DNA of 64,000 bases from an uncultured Siphonobacter sp. (lineage in GTDB: Bacteria > Bacteroidota > Bacteroidia > Cytophagales > Spirosomataceae), in contig CAJYIW010000024.1 of NCBI GenBank assembly GCA_913775095.1, forward strand, positions 372,001 through 436,000, in the 5' to 3' direction. Made by a program: the position numbers and the translations under genes. The notes beneath the pieces were generated by a model. That model did no database searches. It saw only the letters and a program-made list of their open reading frames with translations, and was not told where the DNA came from. This document shows, piece by piece, positions 55,435 to 64,000 of the stretch (position 1 is the stretch's first letter; every line of letters starts with the position of its first letter).

Positions 55435-55554
55435 TTATGAGCCACTGATCCGCTGCGTAGAGTCCGCTCCGTGCCGGTGGTTACCCGTTTTGGAACAACC
55501 CGCACAACTGCTTAAACCCGCTAAGAGTAACAGTGAAAAATAATAGATTTTCAT
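55435..55554 (-). CDS. 39-residue lipoprotein, translationally coupled to the stator gene
   Basis: An overlooked small gene. The start ATG (55552-55554) overlaps the TGA of the MotB/ZorB-like gene as ATGA, the classic coupling signal. The product begins MKIYYFSLLLLAGLSSCAGC, a complete lipoprotein signal with lipobox LSSC (Cys 17), and then 22 polar residues ending in Ser before TAA. Such short lipoproteins often anchor or regulate envelope complexes. It is last in the tubulin/actin/stator operon. Function is inferred from position only. Confidence 0.72.
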   Translation of the reverse strand: MKIYYFSLLLLAGLSSCAGCSKTGNHRHGADSTQRISGS

Positions 55555-56195
55555 AGGGACTTCCCGACTTTGGAGGTGATCTGTATGGTAAACCGTCGAT
55601 TGGAATTTTCGTTCCGGGGATCTCTGGATTTCCCAAAGTGTCCACTTCCAACGATTAATACCTCACAGTTCTTGAACTGGTCAAAGTTAATACCATTTTG
55701 CTTCCAGAAATCCACCAGAGCCAGGGCCCGACGATAACTTAATTCATACCCGTTTTGTCGCCCGAACGCACTCTGCCAGTTGTCATTGGCCCGCTGGGCA
55801 TTTCCTTCCACCACCACCATGTAACTCACGTCGGGGTTTTCTTTAGCGACTTTCCTGATTTTGCCGAATAATACGCGGCCCGCCTCCAGTAATTCCCGAC
55901 GGGTGCGGCCATCCAGCTCTTCCATATCGGCCTTATTGGGCCGGAAATTGACGTCTACGCCCAGTCGGAAACGTTTATTATTTTCGTCATACCTGAAGTA
56001 CGTTCCGTTCAGTTCCTGCAGGGCCCGCTCAATGGTCTGAATTCGCTGATACTTCAGGGCATCACTCAGATACCCTTGTTCTTTGGATTTCAGGATAGCG
56101 ACGGTCAGCACATACAGTACCAGCATGACGAAAAAGAGGCTCGTCATTAAGTCCGTATAACTGGGCCAGAAAAAATCGGAATGTTTGCTTTTCAA
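55551..56195 (-). CDS. MotB/ZorB-like stator subunit with OmpA domain
   Basis: Small membrane protein with one N-terminal helix (residues about 18-35) preceded by FFWPSYTDLMTSLFFVML. Asp15 in YTDLMTSL sits where MotB and ZorB carry the ion-conducting Asp. The rest is an OmpA-type peptidoglycan-binding domain, with VVVEGNAQRANDNWQSAFGR, LSYRRALALVDFWKQNGINF and NSNRRFTIQI. Length 214. The start is a TTG, three codons after an in-frame stop, so no earlier start is possible. It follows the MotA-like gene by 31 bases and overlaps the lipoprotein gene. It would form an ion-driven stator anchored to the cell wall. Confidence 0.85.
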   Translation of the reverse strand: MKSKHSDFFWPSYTDLMTSLFFVMLVLYVLTVAILKSKEQGYLSDALKYQRIQTIERALQELNGTYFRYDENNKRFRLGVDVNFRPNKADMEELDGRTRRELLEAGRVLFGKIRKVAKENPDVSYMVVVEGNAQRANDNWQSAFGRQNGYELSYRRALALVDFWKQNGINFDQFKNCEVLIVGSGHFGKSRDPRNENSNRRFTIQITSKVGKSL

Positions 56196-56226
56196 TGAAT
56201 ACTAACTTAAAGAAGTAATAATTTTA

Positions 56227-57822
56227 TCAACTTTTCGCGGAAAACATTCGTCCCCAGGTTCCCTTTTCCAATCGTTTTACCATTCGTTCAATCAGTTGCA
56301 GCGTCTGAGCCTGCTGACGACCCAGAGCCTCCAGCTGCTGTCGGATTTGCTCCTGCCGCATGGCGTCATCCCGCTGATAAGAAGTAGCATTTCGCTCGAG
56401 TAACTCCAGATAATCCAGTTTACTAAGCTTATCCCGATTCTGGGTAAAATACTCGTCCGTAGCATTGATTTCACGAATTTTAATATCCTCAATGCTCTTC
56501 AGCTGGTTATGGATGGTACGATCCAGTGATTTTAAACTCTGATCGATCAGGTCGTCGTACTGCCCTACTTTGTTGTTAAAGGCCTGTCCGTGCTGATCAA
56601 GGTGTTTGAAATGACTGGTCAGGTACAGATATAAATCCTGCGACTGTTGAAGCGACTTGGAAATCTGAACCGAAATATCTTCTACATTCTGCGTCCGCTC
56701 CACAATTTTCTGCGTGTTCTCGACCAGTCCATTGAGTTGATTCAGGTAATATCCAAATTTCTCCAAAGCACTCAAACTGCCATCCAGCTGACTCAATACC
56801 TGCACATTGAAGCTTGCCACCCGGTTCAGATCCACCTGTTGCAGCATGTCCAGAGCTTTCTGCTGGGCCATGAGCGAGGCGTGATTTTTATCGACCATTC
56901 CGCTCAGTTCCTGCACATTATCCCGAAACGAAGCACTGAAATCCTGAATACTGCGATTAAGGGTCGTGAAAATGCCCGTGTTTACGCCTTCCGACAAGAT
57001 GGGTAATAATTCCGTTTGAAGGAAAGAGAAAAAATCCTGTTTCTGAGCTTCCAGCGTAGATTTCGCATCGCGGAAAGACCAGTTATTGAGTACCGTCAGT
57101 AATAACCCTGCCAAACTCGCCAGCATGGCTATTTTTACGCCGCCAATGAGGTTATTCAAGCCATCACCCTGTAAAAAGCTGGCGGATCCTACGTTGGGCA
57201 TGGCGAATAACCCGATCACGATTCCGGCCATGGTACCCATTAAACCCAGGTAAAGCGGGATAGGCATGGTCAGGCTGATGCCTTCTTCTTCGGCGTCCAG
57301 ATTGCGATCCGTTATGTCCCGCAACAGGTTAAAATCGGCCAGCGACGTACGGTTACGGATCAGGTAGGTATTGATACTTTCCAGAATTTTGCTTATTCCC
57401 GCTGACTTATCTTTCGAGAGAACTAATGGAACCTCAATTATTTCCCGGCTGGGGTGCATGGTTTTAAAATTCCAGAGGTCTTCCCGAATCTGACGCAACT
57501 CCTCTTCGGCTTCCTGACGCAGAACCTCGTGTAACTCGTTCGACAGCAAGACTACTAACTGATCTTCGCGACGGGTTAATTCTTCAAGCTGGAGATTGGT
57601 TACCTGCGTGCGTTGCGAAAGACTGTCGATCTGCTTCAGTACTTCACGCGTGGAAAGTTGCTCCAGGTCCTGCCGTAAAATCCGGTATCGTTGTAAAGTA
57701 AAAGCAGATCCTTCGGGTATTAACTCGCGAAACCGTTTGATTTTTCCCCGCGTATTCTGCCAGACCCAGGCCTGAGCTGCCAGAATTCCCAGAATGATAA
57801 CGATTTCAATAATTTGAACCAT
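56227..57822 (-). CDS. MotA/TolQ/ExbB/ZorA-like proton-channel protein with long cytoplasmic tail
   Basis: A 531-residue inner-membrane protein. TM1 is IIEIVIILGILAAQAWVW (3-20). After a 160-residue cytoplasmic, coiled-coil-rich section come TM2 (IPLYLGLMGTMAGIVIGLF, 188-206) and TM3 (IGGVKIAMLASLAGLLLTVL, 226-245), which are the MotA/TolQ/ExbB core. The tail (250-531) is a long run of heptad-like helices (e.g. YDDLIDQSLKSLDRTIHNQL) with no known domain. MotA-type domain plus a very long cytoplasmic tail is the architecture of ZorA in Zorya phage-defence systems, but the effector genes of Zorya are absent. It pairs with the next gene. Confidence 0.83.
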   Translation of the reverse strand: MVQIIEIVIILGILAAQAWVWQNTRGKIKRFRELIPEGSAFTLQRYRILRQDLEQLSTREVLKQIDSLSQRTQVTNLQLEELTRREDQLVVLLSNELHEVLRQEAEEELRQIREDLWNFKTMHPSREIIEVPLVLSKDKSAGISKILESINTYLIRNRTSLADFNLLRDITDRNLDAEEEGISLTMPIPLYLGLMGTMAGIVIGLFAMPNVGSASFLQGDGLNNLIGGVKIAMLASLAGLLLTVLNNWSFRDAKSTLEAQKQDFFSFLQTELLPILSEGVNTGIFTTLNRSIQDFSASFRDNVQELSGMVDKNHASLMAQQKALDMLQQVDLNRVASFNVQVLSQLDGSLSALEKFGYYLNQLNGLVENTQKIVERTQNVEDISVQISKSLQQSQDLYLYLTSHFKHLDQHGQAFNNKVGQYDDLIDQSLKSLDRTIHNQLKSIEDIKIREINATDEYFTQNRDKLSKLDYLELLERNATSYQRDDAMRQEQIRQQLEALGRQQAQTLQLIERMVKRLEKGTWGRMFSAKS

Positions 57823-57840
57823 AATTATTTTGAGTTTCGG

Positions 57841-57915
57841 GTTTAGCGTTTTGAGTTTGGAGTATATGTTATGATAGCAATACTAAACCCAAACACCAAA
57901 CTCAAAACGCTAAAC
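57841..57915. repeat. 20-bp perfect inverted repeat
   Basis: GTTTAGCGTTTTGAGTTTGG (57841-57860) pairs perfectly with 57896-57915 around a 35-base loop. It lies 4 bases after the stop of the coiled-coil gene and 18 bases before the channel gene start. No T run follows on the minus strand, so RNA stability or attenuation is more likely than strong termination. Confidence 0.8.
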
Positions 57916-57919
57916 TTCT

Positions 57920-59269
57920 CTAGTTTTCAAAGCGAATGATCGCTTTGTATTGTAGTTCCCAACGATCGGATTCGAGGTCGGGTTTCGTTAACTTACCTTT
58001 GGCTACAGTTTCAATACTGCGGGCTCCGAACTGAATGCCTCCGCCGTATTCACAAACGGGATCCAGAAAGGTTTCGGGATACCGTAAAGCTTCACTAACC
58101 AGTGCCGGATCATTCACAAATTCAAACTCCGCACTGTAAGGACCCGTAATCCGAACGTGATACAAGGACTGCGAAGGGTCAAAATGAGCACTTCTTAAAT
58201 CCCGGAAAGATCCGTCTTTATTGGGCGTTGAAAGGTAAAATTCCGCCGGATTTCTGTCATTTGTCTCTACGTCTTCTACTGCTGCTGATTCGGCCGGAAC
58301 AGGTTCTTCCGGCAAAGGTTCCTGCGTAGGTTCTTCCGCGGAAGGTCGTTCTTCAGGTTGTTGCTCAGCAACGGGCAGGACGGGTATCACCGCAGGAATT
58401 TCCGGAGCCTGGGGTGGATTTGGAGTAGCCGGCGTCTCGTGAACCGGGGGTTTCGTCATGGAAGCCTGAAGGTTCTGAACTTCCTGTAACCAGCGTTTTC
58501 GCTCTGTCTCGCCCTGCTCCTGACTGTGTTTCAATGCTCGTTCGTACTCTTCGATTGCTTTTTCGTATTCTCTGATCTTTGTAATCAGCTGAGGCACCTG
58601 TTTTTCCAGTTGCTGCATCTTTACGAAACTCTGGCTGGCCTGACTGGACGTGTTAAGCATTTGCCGCTCCAGATGATCCCGCTTTTTCTTTTCGTCCCAG
58701 TATAAATAACCCAGTCCAAGGGCAGCCAGAATACTGATTCCTGATACTACCCACCAAACCCAGGGCGAATCACTGGATTTGTTGACAATGAAAGGTACGC
58801 CATCCATGGCCGAATGCGTAGCGGTATCCGGCATGACCTCCGTGCCATCTGCCAGCGTTGTATCACTGTCCAGCATGGCTGCCTCTTCGGTTTCCAGATT
58901 GGTTCGCAGATTTTCGACGAAACTTCCCAGCCCGACTCTGGTTTTCAGAATTGATACTTTCTGACCCTTCTCGTCTTTTTCGGTAAGATTTTCCAGGTCA
59001 TTCAGGATTTTAGTCACTTTTATTTTATCCTGATCGGTAAGGGGCTTTTTCAGGTACGGCTCCAGCTGATTCAATAAGCCGGAAACATTGGGAAGAGCCT
59101 TACTGCCTTTGAAAAAAGCACTTAGTTTTTTATGAAAATCGGCATACGTAGCGGTGGTAGATTTCCCACCTGACTCCTTGAAAGTATCTTTCTGACTGGC
59201 CAGAGGTGTTTGAGCGAAGGTCAGGGTCGCGTAGCACAAAGCCAGGGTTAATAGCAATAATCGACGCAT
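57920..59269 (-). CDS. Membrane-spanning coiled-coil protein with C-terminal cytoplasmic domain
   Basis: A 449-residue protein of unknown family. Residues 1-20 are a cleavable signal (LLLLTLALCYATLTFAQ). Residues 21-165 form a mainly helical, presumably periplasmic part (DFHKKLSAFFKGSKAL). One membrane helix follows (WVWWVVSGISILAALGLGYL, 170-189), then a coiled-coil at 192-270, a Pro/Glu/Ala linker (about 271-335) and a folded C-terminal domain ending LESDRWELQYKAIIRFEN. The C-terminal half would lie in the cytoplasm, next to the two NTPases, while the N-terminal half faces the envelope. It could join the cytoskeletal proteins to the stator; this is inference. Confidence 0.7.
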   Translation of the reverse strand: MRRLLLLTLALCYATLTFAQTPLASQKDTFKESGGKSTTATYADFHKKLSAFFKGSKALPNVSGLLNQLEPYLKKPLTDQDKIKVTKILNDLENLTEKDEKGQKVSILKTRVGLGSFVENLRTNLETEEAAMLDSDTTLADGTEVMPDTATHSAMDGVPFIVNKSSDSPWVWWVVSGISILAALGLGYLYWDEKKKRDHLERQMLNTSSQASQSFVKMQQLEKQVPQLITKIREYEKAIEEYERALKHSQEQGETERKRWLQEVQNLQASMTKPPVHETPATPNPPQAPEIPAVIPVLPVAEQQPEERPSAEEPTQEPLPEEPVPAESAAVEDVETNDRNPAEFYLSTPNKDGSFRDLRSAHFDPSQSLYHVRITGPYSAEFEFVNDPALVSEALRYPETFLDPVCEYGGGIQFGARSIETVAKGKLTKPDLESDRWELQYKAIIRFEN

Positions 59270-59304
59270 CTGTTCTAAGAATTGAGGTTGACTGTTTTAA
59301 TTTT

Positions 59305-59359
59305 CAGTGGTCAGTTTTCTGTTTTCAGTTGCTAACTGAAAACGGAAAACTGACCACTG
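59305..59359. repeat. 26-bp inverted repeat
   Basis: Bases 59305-59330 pair with 59334-59359 with one G-T mismatch and a 3-base loop. The right arm ends 2 bases after the stop of the 1184-residue ATPase gene. It is followed on the minus strand by AAAATTAAAAC and not by a T run. Confidence 0.85.
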
Positions 59360-59361
59360 CA

Positions 59362-62300
59362 TTAATTAGCCGCTTCCCAGGCGAGCTGATTGAGGGCCCC
59401 CACAAGTGGGTAAAAGAACAGCGTTTCTTCGATGGGCGTATTTGGGTTTTCCAGCCCTTCCCGCCGCATTTCCCAGCCACTGTGCACGTTCTGCAGGAGA
59501 TTTCTTAATAGCGTGCTTTTGTACTGCTCCAGTCGGCCTTCGTTGACACCGAATTTGCCGCTAAAGGAGAACTCCAGACTGAAAAGCATTTCCACGAATA
59601 CCCGAACTTCGTCGGCTACTCCCTGTAATACTTCATTATCAATCTTCTGATACGTGTCCCCACGCACCACCAGACGATCTTCTTTCGTACCCAGCAATAC
59701 CGTCTTGATCTTATCCATTTCCGCTTCCAGACGACCGTCGTCTTCACGGGTAAAGTTCAGACCCGGCATTTTCAGACCACCCTTGCAGGTGGACTCCTTC
59801 GGTGAGTTACGTTCGCGTACGATGTCCAGTCCGTCGGCATGGTAAGGCTGATCGTAGACTTTTTCGAAGATCAGCATCGCCAGATCGGACAGGGCTACGT
59901 TACGGGGCGTAAGAATATCCAGCACTTTCGAACCCGTTCCACTGAAGGCAATGTACCGGGGCATATCCTTGCCTTTGGCCTTCATCAACCGGGCCAGATG
60001 GTAGATCTGAGCGGTATAAAACACCAGCGGCACAATCTTCAGATCCGAGTCATTCGCCAGTCGGTCGTTGAAATCGTAGGCTGCTTTTTCGCGTAAATCC
60101 CGGTTGTTTTTCAGCGAGAAATAGAAGGCTACAATGTCCTCCGAACGATTATTATCCTTAATGGCCTTATACGCCGCTCCCAGATTGCTGAAATTGGCGG
60201 ATAAGTGAGCCATTACCTCCGGATCGTATTTCTTAACATATCCATTCCGGGCGGCTGCTCCGTCCCGGGCAAATCCATCCCCGAAGACTGCATTACCAGC
60301 GAAACGAACGGAGGTCAGTAAATTAGGCTGATTCTTCTCAAAAACAACCACGTCTGCCGTCCCCCCTCCGATGTCAATCAGAGCCGTGGGGTAAATGTTG
60401 GAATCAATGGGCTGACTGCTTCCACCTCCCCGACTATACCAGTAAAACGGAGCAATACTTTCGGGTACCTTTCGGGGCATCCGATCCTTACTGATCGTCT
60501 CGGCGTAGAGTTTGTTCCAGAGGCCTTCGAAGTAATTACGCTGATTTTCAGCCATACTCAGCGGATAAAACCAGAGTAACTCCGTATGAGCGAGGTTACC
60601 ACCGTTGATCAGAACCTTGTTACGGATCAATAGTAATAAGGATTGCAAAAAGCCTTCAATGCGTTTCTGAGCTTTCACATTCTTACTAAAATCCGACCAT
60701 TTCAGGTTCGTTGAAACGGTATAATCATCTTTCGGAATATTCCGTTTTTCGTACAGGAATCCGATGTTGAAATCACCGAACCCGTACAGGTTTTCTCCCG
60801 AAAAATTAGGTCGGTTTTCAATTAAGGCCGTTCGTTGCGGAAACTTGCACAGATACGCTTCGCCCAGATGTTCGGGCATTAGCTCCTGCGGCACGAGTTC
60901 CGTGATATCATTCGCCCGAATGCTGTTGAGAGCTTCCGTGCTGTTGGGATCAATCAGGGTGGCGATCTGAACGTCATCATCGATGGTGAACGCCCGCGGC
61001 TGCCGATCTTCCGAGGTCGTGTACTCCACGTGCGTGTTGGTCGTACCAAAATCAACCGCAAAGGTGAAGACGGTATCGTTCATTTCACGGATTTCGAACT
61101 TCGGTAAAATCACCCCCCGATGCCCGGCTACTTCAACGGTAACGCGTTCAAAGTCAGCATCAACTACCTGTATTTCTGATTTAGCCCCTTTGTTTAAATC
61201 CTTCTGACTACGGGGACGAATTCGGTTTTGAGGGACGGGAATCAACTGATTCTTTTCGTCGTAAAAGCTCAGTCTGTATTCATTCTTGAAACTTTGAGCC
61301 GATACATCCCGATCCACCAGATGTACGCGGTACATGGGCTTGAAGTCAGGAATATTCACTCGTTTCATTTTCACGAATGGGAATACCGTCAGTCCAAACT
61401 GATGCTCGGCAATGACGCCTTCGTTTTTCTCCTCACTCGGCGTTTTCGTAGGATCATCGTAGTACATCCGGGACAGCTTCAGGCTTCGTCCCGTGGGAAT
61501 GACCTTCTGCTGGGAAACATCCCACCGTCCTAATGGAATCTGAAGAGTGACCCGTACGGAGCCGCCCGCCCGCTCTTCCATCTGAATGCTGACTTCCCCA
61601 CCCCGCATCAAATCCTGAGCCGAGAAAAACTCAAAAAAATCGGGTTTTAACGGTAACAGATAGCTTTTCTGAACATGGCGAAGACCGCCATCAAAGAAGC
61701 GTTGGGAGTTAATCGGATACACCAGCCGGATCAGGTAAGGCTCCAGAAAATCGCTGGTAGTCAGATACGGATAAAAATCAGCCTGACCGGGTAACTGCCG
61801 CTGGTTGCTTCGCCAGTCTTCCGGCACGTAATGCTTCACCTCAATCGTATCCCGCCAGGGAATCCGGGTATAAGGAATGGGTTCGAAAAAGTCTTTCGAT
61901 AGTACCATTGGAGCCGGACGGTCGGTATATCGCTGCTGGCGAACGCCGTATTCGTCCAGTTCTTCGGTGGGACTGATCAGGAAATGGCTTAATCCCTGAA
62001 TAACTTCGGGTCCTGAGGCGGCCTTCCGCATTTTAAATGCGGGTCCGGACGATAATGAAGCGAACTCTACGATGGAATTGGTATCAAACTCCAGTTCGGG
62101 GAAGTCGGCGTTCCAGGTTTCTTCGCGAAGGTTCTGACCATTCGCTCCGATGCGTTGCCAGGTTTCATAATCGCGGGTATGCAGTAATTCCAGGCTTCGG
62201 CTCAGGTACTCGGAAACCTCCGGATACATATCCCGGAAACCGGGCATGAAGCGTTTAAGTCCGTGCCAGAATACCTGGTATTCAATGTCCCGCTCATGGA

Positions 62301-62916
62301 GAGGAACGGGGTTATTGCGATCAAACACCCGGTGATTGCCAAAGTGAATGTCAACGAAATCCAGGTTATTGGGGGCATTGAAAAAGAGTGTCGCCGGAGA
62401 AGTTCCTCCGATTACGCCCGTTCCCTGCCGGCTTTGGTAATGCAGAATAAAGAGTTTCCGCAGACCCGTGAAGTTATAACTGGCGGCGTCTTCCCGCAGG
62501 TACAGATCCAGGGCCGATCCCAGCCGCTGATGGTTCCGGGAACCACTTTGTAAGGTACGCAGGGCCTGCTCCCGATCCCAGGTAATGATGCGAAGCGGAC
62601 CTTTGGGAGACTTGAATTTATCGAAATTGAAAAAGATTTCACCTACGTCAAAACAGGCCGAAACCAGTCGTTCGTCGTTGAGCGAGCCTTTCAGATTACT
62701 GTATAAAATCAAATTTCGAAAAGCCGATTTTACTAAATCGAAACGGGCAAAGGGGCTGGGAATCGACGTGGGGTCTTTCTCCGTGTCACCTTTGGCTTTA
62801 TCGTCGATGGCTTCGATTAAATCGGTAGTATAAGGTTGCGAAACGAACCAGTGACCATCGACAGAAGCCGAACGGTCGTGCAGGTTAAGTTCGCGTTTAA
62901 GGGACTGATCAGCCAT
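59362..62916 (-). CDS. Large actin/Hsp70-fold ATPase with unknown N-terminal half
   Basis: An 1184-residue protein. The actin/Hsp70 (ASKHA) ATPase core is in the second half: phosphate-1 motif DFGTTNT at 622-628, phosphate-2 motif DIGGGTAD at 848-855, and adenosine motif FSGTGSK at 991-997. These three are in the right order and spacing for a complete nucleotide-binding fold. The N-terminal 610 residues are beta-rich and unfamiliar, with no signal or membrane helix. SrfB-type virulence-associated proteins have a similar overall form, but I cannot confirm that family. It is the second gene of the operon, 90 bases after the tubulin-like gene. The protein likely binds ATP and may polymerise or act as a chaperone. 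Confidence 0.8.
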   Translation of the reverse strand: MADQSLKRELNLHDRSASVDGHWFVSQPYTTDLIEAIDDKAKGDTEKDPTSIPSPFARFDLVKSAFRNLILYSNLKGSLNDERLVSACFDVGEIFFNFDKFKSPKGPLRIITWDREQALRTLQSGSRNHQRLGSALDLYLREDAASYNFTGLRKLFILHYQSRQGTGVIGGTSPATLFFNAPNNLDFVDIHFGNHRVFDRNNPVPLHERDIEYQVFWHGLKRFMPGFRDMYPEVSEYLSRSLELLHTRDYETWQRIGANGQNLREETWNADFPELEFDTNSIVEFASLSSGPAFKMRKAASGPEVIQGLSHFLISPTEELDEYGVRQQRYTDRPAPMVLSKDFFEPIPYTRIPWRDTIEVKHYVPEDWRSNQRQLPGQADFYPYLTTSDFLEPYLIRLVYPINSQRFFDGGLRHVQKSYLLPLKPDFFEFFSAQDLMRGGEVSIQMEERAGGSVRVTLQIPLGRWDVSQQKVIPTGRSLKLSRMYYDDPTKTPSEEKNEGVIAEHQFGLTVFPFVKMKRVNIPDFKPMYRVHLVDRDVSAQSFKNEYRLSFYDEKNQLIPVPQNRIRPRSQKDLNKGAKSEIQVVDADFERVTVEVAGHRGVILPKFEIREMNDTVFTFAVDFGTTNTHVEYTTSEDRQPRAFTIDDDVQIATLIDPNSTEALNSIRANDITELVPQELMPEHLGEAYLCKFPQRTALIENRPNFSGENLYGFGDFNIGFLYEKRNIPKDDYTVSTNLKWSDFSKNVKAQKRIEGFLQSLLLLIRNKVLINGGNLAHTELLWFYPLSMAENQRNYFEGLWNKLYAETISKDRMPRKVPESIAPFYWYSRGGGSSQPIDSNIYPTALIDIGGGTADVVVFEKNQPNLLTSVRFAGNAVFGDGFARDGAAARNGYVKKYDPEVMAHLSANFSNLGAAYKAIKDNNRSEDIVAFYFSLKNNRDLREKAAYDFNDRLANDSDLKIVPLVFYTAQIYHLARLMKAKGKDMPRYIAFSGTGSKVLDILTPRNVALSDLAMLIFEKVYDQPYHADGLDIVRERNSPKESTCKGGLKMPGLNFTREDDGRLEAEMDKIKTVLLGTKEDRLVVRGDTYQKIDNEVLQGVADEVRVFVEMLFSLEFSFSGKFGVNEGRLEQYKSTLLRNLLQNVHSGWEMRREGLENPNTPIEETLFFYPLVGALNQLAWEAAN

Positions 62917-63006
62917 GGATTCTTCAAAATTAGGGTATTAACCTCATTTCATTACCTGATGAACAGGATAGGCAGCACTCGGGAGTTACCCCGATTGAAC
63001 GGACTA

Positions 63007-64000
63007 TTACTGAGCCGCCAGCTGCGGGTATTCTTTCTGGATGAATTCCTCGGTACAGGTATTCATCAGATTCAGAAACTTATCCTCTGGGGTTACGTAG
63101 GTCTTGCCTTTGGACTCGGCGTTCAGGTATTCATCGAATTCGCCTTTGTTCATTTCGATTTCTACGTCAACTGTCTTGCCGAAAAAGTTCTTTTTGGTTC
63201 GCTCAAATCCCGGAATGAATTTCCCCAGATCTTCCGTAGCCAGATTGAACGGCCGAAACGTTCGCTTGTTGAAGATGTTTCGGTCGTGGTCATTCATTTC
63301 GGCTAACCAGCTCCGGTAGTTCTCATTAAAATCATGCAGATTCCGGTAGAATTTCGTCTGTTTGAAATCAGAGCCAATCCTGGGCGTTTCCTTGCTCGTC
63401 CAGGGAGCACTGTTGCTTCCCAGTATCCCATCGCGTTCGACACGGGTTTTCAGGTATTGACTCAGAATAGTCAGCTTGGTCAAGGGCTGGGCAAACACCT
63501 GACGGGTCCGGTCTACGAAGTCGGAGAAATTGAGTCGGGAATTGCTCGTACCCAAACCAAATTCTGCGTAACGGGGGTTCCGGGCAATGACCTGCCCATC
63601 CCGAACCGTGCATTCCATTTCACTGGTGTGCTCACAGAAATCAACAATCGACAGAGCCGATACCAGTTCCACGTAATGAGCATCGTTCTGCTGACCGCCC
63701 GCTCCCGGATCGTACTCATACGGACTGCGGTAACTCTCCGCGATGTAATACAAAGCGTTGAGTTTGGGATATTCCTTATTGGATAAACTGTTCTGGTAAT
63801 ACCCTAATGCGGCTTTCGTTTTGGAGATAAACGTTGCGTTATCAATGGCCTTATCCTGAGCTCCAGCCGAATAGACATCAAAATAGGGCTGCACGGAAAC
63901 TGCTCCAATGCGGGCTTCGCGGACGTCCTTGGCATCAGAGCCCCCGTAACCTCTGATGTTTTTCAGGATCAAAGGGAAACCTGAAGCTCCCGTTCCACCA
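63007..64000 (-). CDS. Tubulin/FtsZ-superfamily protein (5' end outside window)
   Basis: The frame is open to the window edge; 331 residues are present. At the edge it reads GGTGASGFPL, which aligns with the FtsZ G-box GGTGTGAAPV (T4 loop), followed after a helix by the strand IGAVSVQPYFDV (FtsZ: VAVVTKPF). KLNALYYIAES matches the tubulin segment that contacts the base (NEALYDIC). GGQQNDAHYVELVSALSIVDF, read in two blocks, sits where the T7 loop lies (tubulin: GQLNADLRKLAVNMV). The catalytic acids of the usual NxDxxD/E pattern are displaced here. A GGTGASG motif alone could suggest an SDR enzyme, but the later segments fit tubulin better. It is first among the visible genes of the operon. Confidence 0.7.
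   Translation of the reverse strand, partial: GGTGASGFPLILKNIRGYGGSDAKDVREARIGAVSVQPYFDVYSAGAQDKAIDNATFISKTKAALGYYQNSLSNKEYPKLNALYYIAESYRSPYEYDPGAGGQQNDAHYVELVSALSIVDFCEHTSEMECTVRDGQVIARNPRYAEFGLGTSNSRLNFSDFVDRTRQVFAQPLTKLTILSQYLKTRVERDGILGSNSAPWTSKETPRIGSDFKQTKFYRNLHDFNENYRSWLAEMNDHDRNIFNKRTFRPFNLATEDLGKFIPGFERTKKNFFGKTVDVEIEMNKGEFDEYLNAESKGKTYVTPEDKFLNLMNTCTEEFIQKEYPQLAAQ

Follow-up and report, generated by a model that had tools for sequence, protein, structure and literature searches.

The right end of a 64,000-nucleotide stretch from an uncultured Siphonobacter sp. (GCA_913775095.1, contig CAJYIW010000024.1, forward-strand positions 372,001 to 436,000; hereafter the window) carries part of an operon that encodes, in reading order on the minus strand, a vWA-type lipoprotein, a membrane protein with three transmembrane (TM) helices (3-TM protein), a tubulin-like protein, a giant ATPase of the actin/Hsp70 (ASKHA) fold, a coiled-coil protein, a MotA/ZorA-like protein, a MotB/ZorB-like protein and a mini-lipoprotein. 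The first five of these genes form a core that is found again in distant Bacteroidota and on plasmids of cyanobacteria, and the ZorAB-like motor is an optional module on this core. We propose, with the arguments on the two sides in approximate balance, that the operon specifies a single trans-envelope machine, the likely role of which would be a response to envelope stress or invaders.

Conservation of a five-gene core with an optional motor

Twenty-eight loci were collected through the ASKHA gene, which is therefore present in all of them by construction. With families counted at E<1e-5, using profiles that were themselves derived from these loci by iteration, the tubulin gene is found in 27 loci, the vWA-type and coiled-coil genes in 25 each, the 3-TM gene in 22, MotA in 16 and MotB in 14; some of the absences are contig ends (L023, L034), and the set includes two identical loci (L033 and L068) and two from one genus (L003, which overlaps the window, and L016). 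The gene order recurs across several families of Bacteroidota. The family MotA is missing from 11 of the 27 scorable loci, among them L071, which is scored as motor-less on the tree although it carries MotA- and MotB-like genes of a divergent kind; its MotB was found at 3e-5 in the locus survey and missed at 1e-3 when nine genomes were searched with the MotB profile. In that search, seven genomes with MotB-less loci have no copy elsewhere at 1e-3, G008 has a copy within the locus, and G016 has a distant one. In G016, the set is split over three distant places (ASKHA, coiled-coil and MotA; vWA, 3-TM and tubulin; MotB) and all seven families are kept. Chance adjacency of these genes is rejected by the gene order, the co-occurrence and this split genome. 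The expectation of the first-pass annotation that the genes stay together across distant Bacteroidota holds for the tubulin-ASKHA core, whereas the motor comes and goes and G016 splits the set yet retains all of it. On the ASKHA tree, which was built by a quick method and has long branches, the distribution of the motor requires five changes, at least four of them by well-supported branches.

The distances between ASKHA proteins correlate with those of the tubulin-like (r 0.95, n 26), vWA-type (0.89, n 24), 3-TM (0.79, n 21), coiled-coil (0.81, n 24), MotA (0.97, n 15) and MotB (0.89, n 13) proteins, and none of these values is reached in 2000 permutations; the motor, where present, diverges in step with the core. 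Together with the gene order, the co-occurrence and the split genome, these correlations support the earlier view of one co-inherited envelope unit. The operon is under purifying selection in the genus: among four genomes, dN (nonsynonymous divergence) of the seven larger genes is 0.02-0.44, well below dS (synonymous divergence) where the latter could be estimated, dS being saturated (1.2 or more) and often not computable. The coiled-coil protein is the fastest evolving of the seven. An approximately unbiased (AU) test on the ASKHA tree rejects a single clade for the family of the window (p 5e-11; the group was named after the tree had been seen, L034 was placed by its position beside L020, and L068, L071 and L072 were omitted), which indicates either spread of the system or an ancient duplication.

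Each of the five other genomes of the genus (G001-G005) has counterparts of all seven larger genes at a locus of the same kind, with a tubulin open reading frame (ORF) of only 416 residues in G002, and the ASKHA gene is present in 10 of the 19 genomes searched among relatives, including all six of the genus. Across 395 Bacteroidota genomes, the tubulin profile matches 13, of which 12 also carry the ASKHA gene; among the matches listed for the ASKHA profile, 11 genomes were accepted, all with the tubulin gene. In G301, a divergent ASKHA gene adjoins the tubulin gene, and in G407 (13% contamination) a split tubulin gene is directly followed by MotA with no ASKHA gene there. The total of 181 of the 395 genomes with an ASKHA-profile match was set aside in favor of these 11, given that, among the matches listed, the weak ones nearly all span only the DIGGGT loop; these come mostly from ORFs of ~420-490 residues, which we read as FtsA-type. 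At L088 (7925-13414), in a contaminated genome, the tubulin gene is split, MotA and MotB are short, and the ASKHA and coiled-coil genes were not found; this copy is apparently decayed or misassembled. A scan of contigs yielded at least 14 loci, with Hymenobacter, Solirubrum, Christiangramia, Maribacter, Pedobacter, Prevotella, Sodaliphilus and Rudanella as hosts.

Phyla besides Bacteroidota were sampled only via plasmid, phage and viral records. Among 72,556 plasmid records, a relative of the ASKHA gene is present on five cyanobacterial plasmids. The three that were mapped encode vWA-type (2e-18 to 3e-18), tubulin (8e-61 or better) and ASKHA (5e-42 or better) proteins, followed by coiled-coil/TM genes that match at 3e-10, 8e-8 and, in Gloeothece, only 2e-3; the membrane protein, for which there is no profile match on these three plasmids, was assigned from position and helices only, and in Gloeothece the vWA gene has the opposite orientation. 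MotA and MotB have no match on the three mapped plasmids. The core is also present in a Prevotella record of 1.77 Mb that is listed as a plasmid. Two viral contigs match in all, one of them at full length. On plasmid L124, a kinase gene lies two genes past the operon on the opposite strand. In the IMG/VR contig L121 (815-15272), the core adjoins a gene that weakly matches a phage baseplate-type model, below the cut-off, so that the operon may flank a prophage there.

Operon organization

The window edge falls within the operon, which comprises eight genes on the same strand (Table 1). The six ORFs described previously are all present at the expected place and strand; the genes to the right of the window, which the first-pass annotation had suggested reading, supply the rest of the tubulin gene along with the 3-TM and vWA-type genes, and the proposed six-gene operon is thereby extended to eight.

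Table 1. Genes of the operon. Positions are those of the window; a window position equals the L003 position plus 53999.
Gene product	Position	Strand	Features
Mini-lipoprotein, 39 residues (CAGCSKTGNHRH...)	55435..55554	(-)	overlaps MotB stop via ATGA
MotB/ZorB-like	55551..56195	(-)	one TM helix, invariant Asp (FWxSxxDLMT), OmpA-type wall-binding domain
MotA/ExbB/ZorA-like	56227..57822	(-)	three predicted TM helices, long C-terminal helical tail
Coiled-coil/TM protein	57920..59269	(-)	signal/TM, conserved C-terminal domain
ASKHA-fold ATPase, 1184 residues	59362..62916	(-)	motifs DFGTTNT, DIGGGTxD, FSGTGSK
Tubulin-like, C-terminal ~330 codons	63007..64000	(-)	loop SSIFGGTGAxGFP; gene reaches window-equivalent 64545
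Tubulin-like, whole gene	L003 9008-10546	(-)	512 residues
3-TM membrane protein, 141 residues	L003 10753-11178 (window-equivalent 64752-65177)	(-)	right of window
vWA-type lipoprotein, 453 residues	L003 11178-12539 (window-equivalent 65177-66538)	(-)	right of window

The mini-lipoprotein and MotB-like genes overlap by 4 bases; the successive gaps are 31 (MotB-MotA), 97 (MotA-coiled-coil), 92 (coiled-coil-ASKHA) and 90 bases (ASKHA-tubulin), matching the spacing reported earlier, and the 3-TM and vWA-type genes share one base. The sole long terminator-like stem on the operon strand is located upstream of the vWA-type gene (L003 12804-12772); evidence from terminators is weak because the scan gave 8 sites against 14.1 expected in shuffled sequences.

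Predicted folds and active sites

The ASKHA protein probably holds an MreB-like ATPase core: its structural model (mean pLDDT 75, pTM 0.67) has 166 matches in PDB at E<=0.001, headed by MreB (7.1e-8, probability 1.00), with Hsp70, exopolyphosphatase, ParM and actin lower in the list, and both phosphate loops and the adenosine loop are kept in 6 of 6 sequences, in agreement with the fold first assigned to it. The protein scores 19.4 bits against the FtsA model (cut-off 31.8), and no fold match was seen in PDB for its N-terminal ~600 residues in the predicted structure. SrfB is the ASKHA-like protein of SrfABC, which thus also includes a large protein of this type; only one of 15 members of the present family matches Pfam SrfB, at E 0.05, and membership in SrfABC was not adopted.

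The first protein of the earlier description appears, less strongly than is the case for the ASKHA core, to possess the tubulin/FtsZ fold. In the structure predicted from the Hymenobacter member L025 (pLDDT 81, pTM 0.88), the one PDB match at E<=0.001 is a chain of a TRiC-tubulin complex, and tubulins, CetZ and FtsZ come next in the ranking, with probabilities up to 1.00; counting against the fold, TM-scores (structural similarity) are ~0.3 and Rossmann-fold reductases are intermixed from rank 5. The assignment draws on this ranking, on the GGTG loop (invariant in 12 of 12 sequences), on matches to Pfam Tubulin at E<=0.1 in 14 of 14 members (best 7.9e-6), and on the cyanobacterial member L122, which at 40.8 bits is above the Tubulin_2 cut-off of 27; the window protein itself scores 26.9 bits, and 10 of 14 members match Tubulin_2 at E<=0.1. 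On this basis, placement in the tubulin superfamily is retained. A single-sequence profile comparison with the FtsZl1 protein of the same genome gives E 0.13. That second Tubulin_2/FtsZl1 protein (1013 residues, 191.7 bits), at L004 2088-13874 (G000:C1, ~157-169 kb), belongs to a gene run with a caspase-domain protein and a papain/DUF4384 protein, which looks like a separate, peptidase-linked system.

For the vWA-type lipoprotein, profile-profile comparison with 20 bona fide vWA proteins from 8 genomes gives E 5.7e-4 (hhalign probability only 30% over 99 columns), against 0.11 to 0.6 for four control families. All three MIDAS loops are aligned (ExSxS against DxSxS, T, and SD), and the classical DxSxS is present in two of the three mapped cyanobacterial members (L122, L124), the annotated start of the third lying past the site. 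A PDB search with the family profile returned a single chance-level row (E 0.45).

The motor proteins fall below the library cut-offs in the window, MotA_ExbB giving 13.6 bits (cut-off 22.9) for the MotA-like protein and the OmpA domain of the MotB-like protein 18.3 bits (cut-off 27.2); in the divergent L071, the OmpA domain is strong (61.3 bits). With the MotB family profile, a MotB-related protein of solved structure is matched along its length (3e-10) and ZorB at 1.6e-6, and the MotB-like protein matches ZorB models at 6.2e-10, with an NCBIfam ZorB1 score of 18.4 bits (cut-off 400). The MotA profile matches the pore region of solved ZorA at E 0.038 and TolQ at 0.056, both ranking below many coiled-coil matches. 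All 13 MotB sequences have the Asp of the TM helix and the wall-binding domain, and all 15 MotA sequences share an invariant Thr and several invariant Gly in the pore region; because of this invariance, ion flow through the pair is likely. These features and the MotB-related structure match support the ZorAB-type motor proposed at first. In G002, a 90-residue ORF lies on the same strand between MotA and MotB (L118 16963-17235).

Genomic context

The genes that end the operon vary among relatives: a lipoprotein with a retropepsin-type aspartyl protease (L017, L032, and truncated in L088), a trypsin-like lipoprotein (L022), an SNase-type lipoprotein (L022 and L032), an L,D-transpeptidase (L070) and a TM protein with a weak zinc-ribbon match (L021); WG-repeat proteins are found at this end in L017 and L065, and a prolyl-oligopeptidase gene follows MotB after 102 bases in L025. 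The mini-lipoprotein, with versions of 36-41 residues in all six genus genomes, starts with CAGCSKTGN, which resembles the CSGCSRSGS of the L017 lipoprotein protease; as a lead, it may be a remnant of such a protease or a working small lipoprotein. In Christiangramia (L022 18769-21078), a 769-residue DnaJ-domain protein is encoded in the same gene run as the ASKHA protein.

In the genus, the neighbors of the operon are genes for a GHMP kinase (IspE by our reading), a COX3-like protein, a ferritin and a glycosyltransferase-4. At L069, an SNase-type gene lies beside MotB on the other strand, and an upstream gene has a CARF-type model match.

Relationship to known systems

No description of the full gene set was found in the open-licence papers searched, in line with the original impression that no characterized system contains it; in a study of MotAB evolution (PMC12505986), the word tubulin is absent from the main text. 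Operons combining FtsZl1 (Tubulin_2), vWA, GTPase and OmpA proteins have been proposed to encode complexes, with a predicted role in membrane remodelling (Makarova and Koonin, 2010; PMC2875224), and the vWA lipoprotein in the core ties the present operon to these. By the main description in that paper, to which this comparison refers, the two share a Tubulin_2-like protein (here just under the cut-off of the family model), membrane proteins, a vWA protein (there often with a signal peptide), in several cases an OmpA-type domain (here in the MotB-like protein) and a function without experimental assignment. In contrast to the described operons, the present one encodes a giant ASKHA ATPase and a MotAB pair, lacks among its seven larger products the P-loop GTPase and Ser/Thr kinase that are frequent there, and has a tubulin-like protein of ~510 residues without the long coiled coil of most FtsZl1 proteins; overlap with unnamed neighbor families is possible. 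A reviewer of that paper asked how a cytoplasmic FtsZl1 meets periplasmic partners (PMC2875224); the membrane-spanning coiled-coil and MotAB proteins are a possible answer.

Conflict systems centered on a GAP1-N2 GTPase combine tubulin with an extracellular vWA protein in one theme and include HSP70 in another (Kaur et al., 2020; PMC7159879), so that tubulin, vWA, an HSP70-type protein and a membrane setting are shared. As described in the parts of that paper compared here, those systems have a TRAFAC GTPase and GAP1, with no mention of a motor, whereas the present operon has a motor, and 12 of the 13 surveyed genomes combine the tubulin and ASKHA genes. Library scans of the operon proteins, which did not include a GAP1 model, found no GTPase family, and membership in this group was not adopted. 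Zorya depends on the tail of the A subunit, on wall binding and on ion flow, and type II ZorAB directs its effector ZorE to the membrane (PMC11890865). The present motor is similar in having an A subunit with a long cytoplasmic tail and a B subunit with a TM helix and wall-binding domain; in contrast to Zorya, the core consists of tubulin, ASKHA and vWA proteins and the motor is optional.

A candidate trans-envelope machine and its alternatives

From the gene set with its fold matches and motifs, its co-inheritance and the optional motor, we infer that the products form a complex, as well as the direction of coupling and the role. The vWA-type lipoprotein, outside the inner membrane, would sense or grip a ligand via a MIDAS-type metal site, and the 3-TM and coiled-coil proteins would pass the signal across that membrane. 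On the cytoplasmic side, the tubulin-fold GTPase and the giant ASKHA ATPase would form a nucleoside triphosphate (NTP)-controlled assembly at the membrane. In many lineages, including this one, the wall-anchored ZorAB-like motor would contribute torque from ion flow, or a gate responding to wall tension, transmitted by the long MotA tail, which, by analogy with Zorya, could act on the coiled-coil, ASKHA or tubulin-like protein. Given that the core exists without the motor, it must be able to act alone, and the motor would then add power, wall sensing or anchoring. In its boldest form, which we put forward tentatively and as rather doubtful, the two NTPases would be an obligate sub-membrane pair that reads an outside vWA sensor and in many lineages draws its power or gating from a rotary ion motor anchored in the wall, and the whole would be a mobile envelope-defense device common to Bacteroidota and cyanobacteria.

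Two features point to a response to stress or invaders, namely the hydrolase lipoproteins of some relatives and a spread that is patchy and in part plasmid-borne; the housekeeping location in the genus argues for a steady envelope task; we hold the former slightly above the latter. Several observations weigh against a defense machine of this kind. The housekeeping neighbors and the presence in 6 of 6 genus genomes make the defense signal weak; 8 of 10 flanking proteins from 5 loci have no match in a defense library at 1e-3, the other two both being at L069 (4490-5053; 15254-17500); and phage records gave no match. Hydrolases were identified behind only some loci, in a search that covered part of the downstream genes; 10 of the 16 loci with a motor have no same-strand ORF of at least 60 residues within 150 bases downstream. 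None of 24 vWA-type members matches Pfam vWA, and the co-divergence can also come from shared vertical descent.

The alternative that survives best, a credible minority view that overlaps with the trans-envelope machine, is that the tubulin-like and ASKHA proteins are non-polymerising NTP switches or chaperones in a signaling relay of the kind seen in MoxR-vWA and GTPase-tubulin conflict systems. The ASKHA model matches Hsp70 as well as MreB, the L022 gene run includes the DnaJ-domain protein, and the T6-H7 elements could not be identified in the FtsZl1 proteins described in PMC2875224; the top fold matches are nevertheless MreB structures, although these say little about polymerisation. Somewhat unlikely, in our judgment, is a vertically kept machine for building the envelope, with the pair setting where wall or outer membrane is synthesized and the motor moving it along, in the manner of rod-complex or gliding motors. 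The genus neighborhood, the L,D-transpeptidase that ends the L070 operon and the purifying selection are consistent with it, whereas the rarity of tubulin-profile matches (13 of 395 sampled Bacteroidota genomes), an ASKHA tree that contradicts the family grouping, and the plasmid-borne copies in cyanobacteria are not.

It is improbable that the motor is an unrelated neighbor and only the five-gene core is one system: the absence of the family MotA from 11 of 27 scorable loci and from the three mapped cyanobacterial plasmids fits this, yet MotA and ASKHA distances correlate at 0.97 (n 15), G016 keeps MotA and MotB after the operon broke up, and the motor occupies the same position in several lineages. 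A new type of Zorya is very improbable, and membership was not adopted, since, notwithstanding the match of MotB to ZorB models (6.2e-10), the long MotA tail and the ZorA pore-region match noted above, the seven proteins scanned have no ZorA match at E<=1 and none to ZorC, ZorD or ZorE, the ZorB1 score is far below its cut-off, and the core occurs without the motor.

Should the parts of the proposed trans-envelope machine function jointly, NTPases of the tubulin and actin types would form a single working unit with an ion-driven motor, in a tractable system for studying how cytoskeletal folds talk to such motors. The prediction of membrane remodelling by FtsZl1 systems is given a concrete, testable form in a five-gene core to which a power module may be added, and the ASKHA fold gains a large uncharacterized family.

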